A stretch of DNA of 41,578 nt from a virus: positions 1 to 41,578 of the IMG/VR virus record IMGVR_UViG_3300003886_000017; one strand, given 5' to 3'. The translations under genes were made by a program, and so were the position numbers. The notes under the pieces are model-generated. The model was not told the DNA's origin, did not search any database, and worked only from the letters and a program-made list of their open reading frames with translations. Of this stretch, positions 36,641-41,052 are shown piece by piece (within the stretch, counting starts at the first letter, position 1; every line of letters starts with the position of its first letter).

Positions 36641-36941
36641 CTTTTTTCTCCCCATCAGTTGATTGACACGCTTTAATTGCGATATCAAGTGTTGTAATCA
36701 CTAATTCAGCGTTGAGACTATAATCAATTACACCGCGTTTTCGATTAGCTAAAAGTTTATTGGCAAACTCAATCATTAATAATAAGTCTACTGGTAGTTT
36801 TTTAACAACTACATCGCCTTCCTTCATAACACTGTATAAGAGGTTTTGCATTACATCAGCTAGGTCAAAATCACTTTTTACAGGGCAATTTTCAATCATG
36901 TACTGTAATAACCGTTTACGCTTTTCATCGGTTTGTTTCAT
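36633..36941 (-). CDS. Unknown helical protein (102 aa)
   Basis: The start follows GTGGAGCTAACAG inside the end of the HNH gene. The product is helical with a basic start (DEKRKRLLQYMIENCP) and a long mixed helix containing LPVDLLLMIEFANKLLANRKRG. No family is recognised. The stop overlaps the zinc-finger gene by eight bases. It may be an early host-directed factor. Confidence 0.5.
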   Translation of the reverse strand: MKQTDEKRKRLLQYMIENCPVKSDFDLADVMQNLLYSVMKEGDVVVKKLPVDLLLMIEFANKLLANRKRGVIDYSLNAELVITTLDIAIKACQSTDGEKKDA

Positions 36942-37383
36942 CTGTTAGCTCCACATGTTTATATGAGACACCGCGATTAATTGCTGTGATATTCTCTCTA
37001 GTTGTGCCATATAGTTTAGCAATTTCCGCGTGAGTCTGTTTACCTTCTTTAAGTAACTTTTTAATATTGCGAACAGTATGGTGAGGCATGCCATGACGTT
37101 CACGTTCTGTCATATCATCCATATTTTCCTGGTGAGTACCACGAACCAGGTGAAATGGATTACAACAGATTGAGTTATCACATGTATGACGTACAAGTTC
37201 ATCATCTTTGAGTATAAGATCATTCATAATATCAAACATGATTCGATAGACAAGAAGTTTCTTCCCTTTGATTACAAAATAAGGTCGGCTTTTATCTATT
37301 GTACCTTTCCATTCCCAACAGATTGAACGATCACCATGATGCATGTCAATCTTACGAAATATATCCACAGGACGATTTGCCAT
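36925..37383 (-). CDS. HNH endonuclease with helix-turn-helix (152 aa)
   Basis: Free-standing HNH (HNH_3-like) endonuclease. ICWEWKG near residue 21 and RHTCDNSICCNPFHL (65-79) supply the beta-beta-alpha metal site with His66 and His78, followed by GTHQENMDDM (82-91) with the conserved Asn. A C-terminal helix-turn-helix (HAEIAKLYGTTRENITAI, about 118-135) would read a DNA sequence. This combination is that of phage homing endonucleases. No intron is seen next to it, so it would act on another site or on an allele lacking the gene. It overlaps the next gene by 17 bases. Confidence 0.85.
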   Translation of the reverse strand: MANRPVDIFRKIDMHHGDRSICWEWKGTIDKSRPYFVIKGKKLLVYRIMFDIMNDLILKDDELVRHTCDNSICCNPFHLVRGTHQENMDDMTERERHGMPHHTVRNIKKLLKEGKQTHAEIAKLYGTTRENITAINRGVSYKHVELTDETNR

Positions 37384-37744: not shown

Positions 37745-38414
37745 TTACCAATTAAATGTATATATCCCAACTGGATTGAGCATGATATCTGCACGATAAT
37801 CCACACAACGCCTATCTTCAATAATCAGATAATTAATCATCATATTAACAGCGAGATTTGCTATTATACTTGCAGTTGTTCCAATTGATAAACTTGTACC
37901 ACACATTGATGCTTCACCGGTATCATCTGATATTAAACTGTCACACCATAGTTTATATATACGCATAGAATTTTGATAGTGCCATGCGCGTTTCAATTAC
38001 AAGCTCAACCCTTGGATTCAGACGTAAACTATTCTTGGCAATTTCCCTTCTACTTTCCATTGTATCGGTAAGTAAAAACACAATGCGCTTCATTTGATGG
38101 CGCATGTCACCCTCAATACGTTTACGAATGAAATTTGTCTTAGGATGTACACCATTTTCATGTTCATCTACTTTTCTGCGTAACCAACGATCCAACCCAC
38201 TAACTTTACTTTCATACATATCTTCTTGAGTATAAATTTGATTAGCAAGATTGTGTGACTCAACTATATCACTATCATAAACGGTAATATCACGTAAACC
38301 AAGATTAATTAGTGCTTCAAATACTCTGCTTCCAACAGCGCCAGCACCAATTATAACAATTGATTTATTATGTTTACGCGGATCAAAATAACTTCTGTGT
38401 CTTGAGGTATCCAT
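37745..38414 (-). CDS. E1/ThiF-like ubiquitin-activating enzyme, split by a frameshift (~223 aa combined)
   Basis: Adenylates the C-terminus of a ubiquitin-like protein and passes it on. The first part (38414-37953) has the Rossmann nucleotide loop GAGAVGS (23-29), YDSDIVESHNLANQ (46-59) with the Asp and Asn that follow it in E1 proteins, Lys70, and LTDTMESR with Asp117. The second part, in the +1-shifted frame to 37745, contains SDDTGEASMCGTSLSIG, the Cys-containing strand and following helix expected at the end of ThiF-type E1 domains. Together they match one domain; neither half is complete. The shift lies in TATATATA at 37954-37961. Two residues too few (or one too many) would explain it. 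The start lies three bases after the JAB stop. Confidence 0.85.
37954..37961 (-). other. (TA)4 tract at the E1 frame break
   Basis: Read on the minus strand, TATATATA runs into the TAA that ends the first E1 part. Adding one TA unit restores a single frame (…FYAYIYKLWCDSL…), with E1-like sequence on both sides of the junction. Frame change could arise through slippage, programmed shifting or sequencing error; see findings. Confidence 0.7.
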
Positions 38415-38417
38415 TAT

Positions 38418-39146
38418 TTATGAACCCCCAAAGTTAGAATATTCATCAAACAATTTATAGTAAAGATGATCTGGTATATCACGAAGCTCTTTTTGTGAAT
38501 AATCATCAATAGTTTTATTTGGATCAAGCTTGGTTAGCAACTTCTGTTCGTTGTGTGGTCTGGCTGCTCCAAATGGTTTATAATAGTTTTTATGATATAT
38601 ATTGTAGCCACTGCAACTAACATTTTCATCTAAACGTGTTGATAAAATTGTTTGCTCCTCAGCTGATAACTCAGCATATTTAACATGCCAATTACAATTA
38701 GAATATAATAAATTTTGTTGGAATAGTGCAATATCAACGCGTATATTACCTGCTTTATTGTGAATTGTACGTATAAAGAATGGGCAAGTTTCACTATATA
38801 CATTGAGTTGTTCATCATCTTGTCCTGATGGATTTACAGGGCCATTAACGTGTGAATGTCCCCATCCGTATAAATGTTCTGCTGGATCTTTTCCTTCTTC
38901 CTCAAGGACATTGAACCAATCAAGATATGCTTGCGCTTCTATATCAGTTTCAGCACCATTAACAATTTGCTTCGGCGTAAATATTTCGGTGACAATATAA
39001 TTATTATTATTATCCACATCAACTGTGAATAACCAACCAACTTCATCATCGGATTCATTAACTATATAGCGAATTGACTCGAATATCTTTGGTGTAAAGA
39101 TGAGTGTAGGTGCTATCCCAGGTTTAATAACTGTTACTGTAGGCAT
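38418..39146 (-). CDS. JAB/JAMM metalloprotease, deubiquitinase-like (242 aa)
   Basis: Predicted zinc isopeptidase that trims or removes a ubiquitin-like modifier. The JAMM signature is complete: Glu35 (in DDEVGWLF), then His97-Ser-His99, seven residues, Ser107, two residues, Asp110 (GWGHSHVNGPVNPSGQDD). The first 150 residues form the JAB fold; the last 90 are an extension of unknown role with several Tyr and Lys. Its start follows ATGGAGAACAAAA, part of a leader shared with neighbouring genes. It sits between E2- and E1-like genes, as in PRTRC-type cassettes. Radical RadC-type or siphovirus tail JAB proteins differ in context. Confidence 0.9.
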   Translation of the reverse strand: MPTVTVIKPGIAPTLIFTPKIFESIRYIVNESDDEVGWLFTVDVDNNNNYIVTEIFTPKQIVNGAETDIEAQAYLDWFNVLEEEGKDPAEHLYGWGHSHVNGPVNPSGQDDEQLNVYSETCPFFIRTIHNKAGNIRVDIALFQQNLLYSNCNWHVKYAELSAEEQTILSTRLDENVSCSGYNIYHKNYYKPFGAARPHNEQKLLTKLDPNKTIDDYSQKELRDIPDHLYYKLFDEYSNFGGS

Positions 39147-39194: not shown

Positions 39195-40697
39195 TCACTC
39201 AATTTCTATATCTTCATCTAACCATTTTGGCCAATATTTACCAGCTGAATCGCTTGCAGTTGCCGTCGAAAGAAACATTATGAGTATGTCGATTAATAAT
39301 GGAATATCACCAGCTGCATAAGCATCACTTACAGCATCAATGTATGTTCCGAAGCAAGCATTACCAGCGTTAAATACATGTGGTGCTTGCATACCAGATT
39401 CATAACCATCGATTTCAGCACCTTGTTCAGCAAATATTTGGATAGCACTTGCACCAGCATCTAAATCAAAGAATTTTATTATAATATTATATGAACCAAT
39501 ATTAATACCAGTATGCTCTGCAAAAAATTCATCATATTCTGGGCTAAAATGATCTGGTCGCATATAAATATCATCAGTCCAAAGGTGTAAATGGTTACCT
39601 AAACCATACCAGCGAACTATACGCGAATTATTAATTGTTTCGGTTGTTACGCAATCTATGCCTAATCCAGCTTTCAAAGCATTTAATATAACATTTGTTT
39701 CATTTATAGCAGTTGCCGTAGATAATATCCATGATTGTTGGTCAACAAACTGCGCTTCGTAGTCAGCTAATTTATCTTCCAGCTGTTCACTACGCAAAGC
39801 TTGAAAATTAAAACACTGCGTGCCGCCTAGATATTTTGTTATTGCCTTTATGTCACCAAAGTAAATATTATTGATAAGTTCACGTTGGATTTTACTTGCT
39901 GGCCCACCCGTAAATGCATCTTTACAGCGTATTAAATCATCTACTATACACAAAGCTTTTCGTAAGCTGTCTGGATGCCATTGATCAATCGGTAATGTAT
40001 GCCATGATTCATCAAATATAGGTTTAGGTGACCATAATTCTAATATAAATACATTGCTGGCAGGAGCGTTGATTATTACCATACCAACTAAATTTCCTTC
40101 AACAATTACAGGTAATTGTCCCTTCACTAACAGTTCTTGGTCGATGTTTATTTTATCGTCAGATACTACCGTTATATATGACGATACACGATGCATAATG
40201 ATAAGGCATACAGGATATACAGGACGATTACGCCCAGTTTTCTTACTTATATAAGACCATAGTTGATCGTGAGCAGCTTCTCCCCAAACAGCATCGTAAG
40301 TTCTTAGTGCTGTTTCTTTGGTATAACATTCTGGATTTCTGAGTGTATAAAATTGTATTCGATTGGTTTCACCAATATAATCATAAATTGCATTAGGATC
40401 ATTTTGTGTTGCAGCTCTAAAATGTTGAACTACATCAGTGAATGCAGCTGTAACTGGATTATGTAAACCTGAAGTATTCTCTTCGATATCATCATCAACA
40501 TGTAGATGATTATCATCGTGATTAAGTGTCATACCTTGTGAAATTCCAATTCTTGGTCCAATTCCAATTCTTGTTTGATTGTTCGTATTAGCATCAAGCA
40601 CAACACCAGCCCGGAATTCAAATTGTGTAGCAACCTCACGATCATCAACAGTTGCAGGAACATCAGCTACACAGCTATCACCATCTTCATCAGACAT
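39195..40697 (-). CDS. Prokaryotic E2-like protein with long N-terminal extension (500 aa)
   Basis: Probable conjugating enzyme, receiving the modifier from E1. The last 62 residues carry the E2 signature of bacterial families: PHVFNAGNACFG, with His440 and the candidate thioester Cys448, followed by DIPLLIDILIMFLSTATASDSAGKYW, as in PRTRC protein B-type E2 domains. Residues 330-438 supply beta strands of the fold. The first 300 residues, which start acidic (DDNHLHVDDD), contain a separate alpha/beta region of unknown type. Typical bacterial E2 proteins are 150-250 residues, so the extension is unusual. The start has the shared AATGGAGAGTTAAA leader, and the gene is 48 bases from the JAB gene. 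Confidence 0.75.
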   Translation of the reverse strand: MSDEDGDSCVADVPATVDDREVATQFEFRAGVVLDANTNNQTRIGIGPRIGISQGMTLNHDDNHLHVDDDIEENTSGLHNPVTAAFTDVVQHFRAATQNDPNAIYDYIGETNRIQFYTLRNPECYTKETALRTYDAVWGEAAHDQLWSYISKKTGRNRPVYPVCLIIMHRVSSYITVVSDDKINIDQELLVKGQLPVIVEGNLVGMVIINAPASNVFILELWSPKPIFDESWHTLPIDQWHPDSLRKALCIVDDLIRCKDAFTGGPASKIQRELINNIYFGDIKAITKYLGGTQCFNFQALRSEQLEDKLADYEAQFVDQQSWILSTATAINETNVILNALKAGLGIDCVTTETINNSRIVRWYGLGNHLHLWTDDIYMRPDHFSPEYDEFFAEHTGINIGSYNIIIKFFDLDAGASAIQIFAEQGAEIDGYESGMQAPHVFNAGNACFGTYIDAVSDAYAAGDIPLLIDILIMFLSTATASDSAGKYWPKWLDEDIEIE

Positions 40698-40757: not shown

Positions 40758-40788
40758 AAATTATTTACTAAGTTATTACTATTTACTA

Positions 40789-41052
40789 CTATTTATTACC
40801 CTTAGCACCAACGGCAATTGTTACGCGATCACCGTCATGTACAATACTACTAAGTGTTGCTGGAACTGAATTAACTTGGTAAATTGATTCACCTGTAGAT
40901 GTGATTGATGCTGCTGCACACACAGCATTAACAGTTGAACCTGGTGGAAGTGTTACAATCTTTGGTTGGCCAGGCACAGGCGAAACACGAACAGCAATAG
41001 TATCTTCATTTACATCTACAACATTAGTAGACATATTATTATCATCTGACAT
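40789..41052 (-). CDS. Ubiquitin-like (beta-grasp) modifier (87 aa)
   Basis: Predicted small modifier of a conjugation system. The first 16 residues are acidic and disordered. Residues 17-82 have the beta-grasp order: strand (DTIAVRVSPV), strand (KIVTLPPGST), helix (VNAVCAAASI), strand (SIYQVNSV), then VHDGDRVTIAVGAKG. The ending resembles AVGTKG of PRTRC protein C, as I recall it. The last Gly (85) is followed by Asn-Lys, so two residues need removal to expose it, a job for the JAB protease. The ribosome site is ATGGAGATTTAAT. It precedes the E2 gene. Confidence 0.75.
   Translation of the reverse strand: MSDDNNMSTNVVDVNEDTIAVRVSPVPGQPKIVTLPPGSTVNAVCAAASITSTGESIYQVNSVPATLSSIVHDGDRVTIAVGAKGNK

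Follow-up and report, generated by a model that had tools for sequence, protein, structure and literature searches.

A ubiquitin-like modifier cassette in a phage genome

The DNA analyzed here, referred to as the window, spans an entire IMG/VR virus record (41,578 bases). It contains a phage cassette for a ubiquitin-like modifier (Ubl), an E2-like protein, a JAB protease, and an E1, with the following features.

40789 to 41052, minus strand: ubiquitin-like modifier, 87 aa; ORF ending in DRVTIAVGAKGNK
40798 to 40800, minus strand: codon for Gly85, proposed mature C terminus and JAB cut site (G85/N86); the only column invariant among 32 aligned relatives (alignment A8), and the residue on which PRTRC_C ends (AVGAKG)
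40795 to 40797, minus strand: codon for Asn86, conserved cap residue, proposed propeptide (DNA read and relatives)
40792 to 40794, minus strand: codon for Lys87, variable tail, proposed propeptide (DNA read and relatives)
40783 to 40791, minus strand: in-frame stops TAG TAG TAA right behind Lys87, the first at 40789 to 40791 (DNA read)
39195 to 40697, minus strand: predicted E2-like conjugating enzyme, 500 aa, with the E2-type motif APHVFNAGNACFG near its C terminus
38418 to 39146, minus strand: JAB/JAMM metalloprotease, 242 aa, with E35, H97-S-H99, S107, and D110 (alignment of 10 relatives; RPN11 profile match)
37953 to 38414, minus strand: E1-like (ThiF) adenylation part, 153 aa, with an early stop (Pfam ThiF; E1 model positions 2 to 143)
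37745 to 37996, minus strand: C-terminal part of E1 in another frame, with the conserved SxCG cysteine (SMCGTS; E1 model positions 153 to 222, E value of 9e-19)

The modifier ORF translates to a C terminus of VTIAVGAKGNK with in-frame stops directly beyond, and this end is firm because the codons read GGT AAT AAA TAG TAG TAA. The original prediction of a modifier ending in VGAKGNK was thus borne out; the positions assigned to the Gly-Asn-Lys end, 40789 to 40797, hold Asn86, Lys87, and the first stop but not Gly85. The ubiquitin-like identity proposed for the protein was also supported by structure modeling and profile matches. An AlphaFold2 model built from 32 sequences had a beta-grasp fold (pLDDT of 84), while folding from the single sequence reached a pLDDT of only 36. 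The modeled elements are strands 19 to 26 and 31 to 35, a helix at 41 to 47, and strands 56 to 60, 63 to 65, and 76 to 81; residues from 82 onward form a loose tail. Its best fold match in the PDB was Caldiarchaeum ubiquitin (6fj7; E value of 6e-4), with further matches to ubiquitin, SUMO, SAMP1, and MoaD, and the family profile matched PF1061 and SAMP2 (E value of 2e-6). The beta-grasp fold of ubiquitin-like modifiers is therefore present in both model and profile; the candidate for an activatable Gly is the invariant Gly85, but Asn and Lys come after it.

The 500-aa protein had no Pfam or NCBIfam match and is predicted to be E2-like from a PH..C.G motif, found in this protein and in 15 of the 15 relatives shown (16/16 in total); in most near relatives the gene with this motif precedes JAB and E1. 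The JAB was predicted to have all its catalytic residues, and it does: E35, H97, H99, S107, and D110, the complete JAMM/MPN+ set (E, HxH, S, and D), are present and invariant across 10 aligned relatives. The JAB family profile matched RPN11 structures (E value of 4e-8), and the Prok-JAB Pfam score of the window protein lies under that model's cutoff.

The E1 contains a ThiF Rossmann domain (Pfam ThiF, E value of 1e-15; 57.7 bits versus a cutoff of 28.1). Instead of one continuous frame including the conserved cysteine, however, the window E1 (37745 to 38414, minus strand) is divided near a TA run into two overlapping frames, with the cysteine in the second; in relatives, E1 is mostly a single frame of ~225 residues. 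Because E1 is split between two frames, the window copy of the cassette may be nonfunctional. A decaying system, in which the frame change leaves the modifier no longer activatable, would explain why the two E1 parts depart from the single frame typical of near relatives, and it is compatible with every reading of the modifier end considered below. The remaining cassette genes, however, are open and conserved, and the split frames would look no different if they came from a sequencing or assembly error at the TA run or from programmed frameshifting; we consider decay possible but somewhat unlikely.

Similar cassettes are common in phages

Single-sequence scans of IMG/VR with the JAB, the 500-aa protein, and a neighboring phage gene returned no relatives, so alignments were used as queries. 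Scans with E1 and JAB alignments yielded 80, 80, 72, and 20 IMG/VR loci and 7 loci in bacterial and archaeal assemblies, to which GenBank phages were added. One JAB pattern matched 72 loci in viral contigs; across assemblies representing 84,980 species of bacteria and archaea, it matched 7. After removal of repeats, 136 E1 types with a candidate Ubl remained; 97 of the 136 were classified by modifier end, with the clostridial branch, crAss-like phages, and unclear cases set aside. A search with Prok_Ub (PF14454) gave zero matches anywhere in 145 genomes and was uninformative. Complete Ubl/E2/JAB/E1 cassettes are common in phages, with about a hundred nonredundant examples.

Genes downstream of two of the cassettes were recognized by eye: an HNH-endonuclease-like ORF in the window (36925 to 37383, minus strand) and, beyond the Ubl, E2, JAB, and E1 genes of MT835544.1, a reverse-transcriptase-like gene (L001, 6954 to 8291). 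In crAss-like loci (L004, 4319 to 6660, and similar), JAB adjoins an E1 whose N terminus carries a long extension; the surroundings showed no clear Ubl.

A conserved Asn follows the invariant Gly

The residue behind the conserved Gly was Asn in 71 of the 97 classified modifiers, whereas Asn makes up 5% of all residues in these proteins; Gly (12), Ala (10), and Ser (1) accounted for most of the others, two cases were unclear, and one modifier had an LG end. Gly-Asn formed the very C terminus in 37 of the 97, was followed by one more residue in 24 (the window included), and carried a longer extension in 10. Tails beyond the Asn position were gained or lost 23 times on the E1 tree, and the residue at that position changed 11 times. 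Within the window's own branch Asn was as constant as Gly, the sole exception being a KGA end (L178). The proposal that two residues need trimming is therefore only partly upheld: a short extension does lie behind an invariant Gly, but its residues are not equivalent, Asn86 being conserved and Lys87 free. Since Asn86 is conserved and is often the true C terminus, a cut between Asn86 and Lys87, or a mature Gly-Asn end, is possible.

More than 12 relatives encode tandem Ubls, in which K-G-N links two or three copies, an arrangement that calls for a processing protease; those of L098, L105, L144, and others resemble a small polyubiquitin. Long tails rich in Gly/Arg or Lys/Pro/Ala follow K-G-N at L162 (6267) and L088 (4222). 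L166, L173, and L089, whose E1 is intact, have R, CPLHLSRD, or A behind K-G-N. In the clostridial branch, modifiers end in KxDNA, mostly without Gly there, and JAB is still carried. At several clostridial loci (L011, L014, L015, L023, L026, L027, L029, and L032), the Ubl, encoded upstream of E2, is fused to a domain of ~130 residues right behind the KxDNA-like motif; elsewhere in this branch Ubl and domain are encoded separately, with DNA as the last residues of the Ubl.

Extensions behind Gly accompany JAB

Residues beyond the conserved Gly were present in 89 of 91 JAB-bearing phage cassettes, the other two ending exactly on Gly. Conversely, nearly all cassettes whose modifier extends past this Gly have JAB. 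No JAB was detected in five phage records of 141 to 238 kb, including Xanthomonas phage PhiXhv-15 (228,725 bases), the IMG/VR records among them being classed as linear and possibly incomplete; in all five the modifier ends exactly in Gly-Gly. A sixth record without JAB (L036) is a 19-kb fragment, too short to judge, whose modifier ends in AGN. Four further loci initially taken as JAB-less by motif (L112, L121, L127, and L239) were rejected since a divergent JAB is present. In JAB-bearing lineages of the branch neighboring the JAB-less clade, the tail follows directly behind GG (GGF, GGC, GGI, GGVK, and GGNK). The five JAB-less Gly-Gly phages form one supported branch on the E1 tree, so the phage test rests on a single event, and the Fisher P value of 2e-6 for the link between JAB and tail, coming from one JAB-less clade, is not usable as a probability.

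Xanthomonas jumbo phages carry a JAB-less cassette of Ubl (ending in SGG), E2-like protein, and E1 (L003, 2805 to 6684; PV764602.1). Its E1 is annotated as a "thiamine biosynthesis protein" and has a relative in Erwinia phage Ep032.

Comparison with PRTRC plasmids and other modifier systems

The PRTRC system, or operon type 6d of Iyer, Burroughs, and Aravind (2006), consists of a Ubl, an alpha-helical protein, an E2-like protein, JAB, and E1, and the window cassette shares these functions and their order (C, F, B for E2, A for JAB, and ThiF), with Ubl, E2, JAB, and E1 in succession. The AVGAKG of the window modifier is identical to the end of Polaromonas PRTRC_C, the phage E1 profile matched PRTRC ThiF (E value of 3e-19), and several JAB-bearing PRTRC members have tails behind KG. 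The window cassette was nevertheless rejected as a PRTRC member, its E1 scoring 27.1 bits against the NCBIfam PRTRC_ThiF cutoff of 144.75. Further differences are that phage Ubl and JAB profiles failed to find PRTRC_C or PRTRC_A, that neither ParB nor protein E was recognized beside the window cassette (the record ends 526 bases beyond the Ubl start), and that the phage family has tandem Ubls and a conserved Asn behind Gly.

PRTRC_C ends exactly in AVGAKG in Polaromonas, while in others AAGAKG is followed by SYA, AYAQI, AVESVAIYA, or longer tails; because the residue behind Gly is not conserved, Gly is most simply the mature end. Tails were found in 5 of 10 JAB-bearing plasmids and in 0 of 6 plasmids without protein A, all six of which end exactly at KG. 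A whole-plasmid search found the JAB of the Pelobacter PRTRC plasmid across the record start, and as this plasmid has JAB, the association (5/10 versus 0/6) is weak. The PRTRC trend agrees, weakly, with the link between tail and JAB in phages.

Among other systems, the Ubl profile matched ThiS and SAMP2 (entry 5lda, which contains JAMM1 as well). The modifiers of the SAMP2/JAMM1 and ThiS/ThiF systems end in Gly-Gly, and neither system is known to have an E2. CBASS Cap2/Cap3 and Bil bring E1, E2, and JAB functions together on mobile elements; CBASS differs in its Cap2, an E1-E2 fusion, and in using the cyclase as modifier. PADLOC gave no specific match to the whole cassette, with no Ubl or E2 match, only generic E1-E2 matches for E1, and a weak JAB match; NCBIfam leaves the cassette unclassified. 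The extra Asn of yeast Rub1 and Ubi4 is removed by cysteine proteases and is not known to be removed by a JAMM enzyme. The precursors of both carry this one Asn behind the mature Gly, as the window modifier has Asn86 behind Gly85, but end their mature forms in di-Gly, and that of Rub1 must be removed (PMC8122580).

The Caldiarchaeum subterraneum system resembles the one proposed for the window: it has an 87-residue pro-modifier with a tail behind Gly, the closest fold match of the modeled Ubl (6fj7), and a JAMM enzyme, CsRpn11, that both matures and deconjugates. CsRpn11 cuts the pro-ubiquitin behind Gly-Gly and later removes the modifier (PMC5654768, PMC6043591). That system, however, belongs to a cellular archaeal operon that includes a RING E3, and its modifier has di-Gly and a 9-residue tail; the window modifier has a single Gly and a 2-residue tail, and no RING protein was seen in the cassette. 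The dual role proposed for JAB is not new as an idea: a 2006 analysis by Iyer, Burroughs, and Aravind predicted processing as well as removal of the modifiers by the JAB of such operons and pointed out tandem Ubls (PMC1779556), and the role has been shown for CsRpn11. The literature searched, which stops short of the Bil papers, yielded no description of the phage K-G-N signature or of the natural comparison with JAB-less members.

A phage pro-modifier probably matured by its own JAB

We propose, at a probability of about 0.62, that the cassette encodes a phage-borne pro-modifier in which JAB cuts behind Gly85, freeing this Gly for E1, and later removes the modifier; the kit's own protease would thus probably remove an end cap before the tag is used. 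The folded part would end at about residue 81, with the loose tail GAKGNK protruding. Cleavage by JAB between Gly85 and Asn86 would release Asn86-Lys87, and E1 would adenylate the exposed C-terminal Gly and pass the modifier via the E2-like protein to targets, from which the same JAB would later strip it. The conserved Asn86 would be a single-residue cap, holding the protein inactive until it is processed yet small enough for the JAB site. In the Caldiarchaeum system, uncut pro-ubiquitin is refractory to E1 (PMC5654768), and bulky residues directly past the cut site block CsRpn11 (PMC5654768, PMC6043591). In MccB, once a C-terminal Asn is activated, its own side chain captures it, whereas a Gly at that position yields a thioester (PMC13255007); this favors a working Gly end, to which Asn would be a sensible cap.

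The strong conservation of Asn, far greater than a discarded residue needs, fits a different end less awkwardly. The mature modifier could end in Gly-Asn, with Asn86 replacing the last Gly of ubiquitin and activated by E1, and with at most Lys87 removed by JAB or another peptidase; relatives ending in K-G-N would then be mature as made, and the work of JAB would be limited to deconjugation or to separating tandem copies. Consistent with this, the position behind Gly is nearly always filled and by small residues, 37 relatives stop there, the tail beyond is unconstrained on the E1 tree, and clostridial Ubls end exactly at DNA or are fused directly behind it. One E1-like enzyme, MccB, works on a C-terminal Asn (PMC13255007), and Gly and Ala ends are both accepted by CBASS Cap2 (PMC10097602). 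However, JAB-less members end in Gly-Gly, with the exception of the 19-kb fragment, PRTRC ends at KG with unconserved residues beyond, the activated Asn of MccB cyclizes, and CBASS cyclases ending in Ser, Val, Arg, or Trp are not conjugated (PMC10097602). A Gly-Asn end keeps some weight because Asn is well conserved and the clostridial branch ends in KxDNA without Gly, but we judge it unlikely. Distinctly unlikely, too, is its corollary of a large phage modifier family with Gly-Asn as the mature, E1-activated end, which would give conjugates, or cyclic (succinimide) ends, unlike any known among ubiquitin-like proteins.

Trimming might instead be unnecessary and the tail neutral, if E1 tolerates short extensions or conjugation does not run via the C terminus, leaving JAB for removal only. 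Two JAB-bearing phage lineages and five JAB-bearing PRTRC plasmids have modifiers ending on Gly or Ala, cases in which JAB is retained although there is nothing to trim. Tail and JAB nevertheless co-occur, tandem Ubls exist, and the refractory pro-ubiquitin of Caldiarchaeum is the closest tested precedent; the chance of this explanation appears slighter still. A random Gly followed by a random tail was rejected, given the invariant Gly column and the excess of Asn over its background.

Maturation of a pro-modifier by JAB, as originally predicted, thus remains the favored reading on the tails found with JAB, the Gly-Gly ends found without it, the tandem Ubls, and the PRTRC_C ends; the place of the trim was less well drawn, as a cut between Asn86 and Lys87 or a mature Gly-Asn end is possible. 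Against cleavage behind Gly85 stand the degree of Asn conservation, the clostridial KxDNA ends that lack Gly in cassettes with JAB, the two JAB-bearing lineages ending on Gly, and the broken frame of the window E1.

If JAB removes the Asn cap, activation of the phage modifier would be controlled like that of yeast Rub1 and archaeal ubiquitin; if Asn is retained, the chemistry would be new. The K-G-N signature at or near the C terminus helps to locate unnamed modifiers beside E1 proteins called "thiamine biosynthesis protein" in GenBank.
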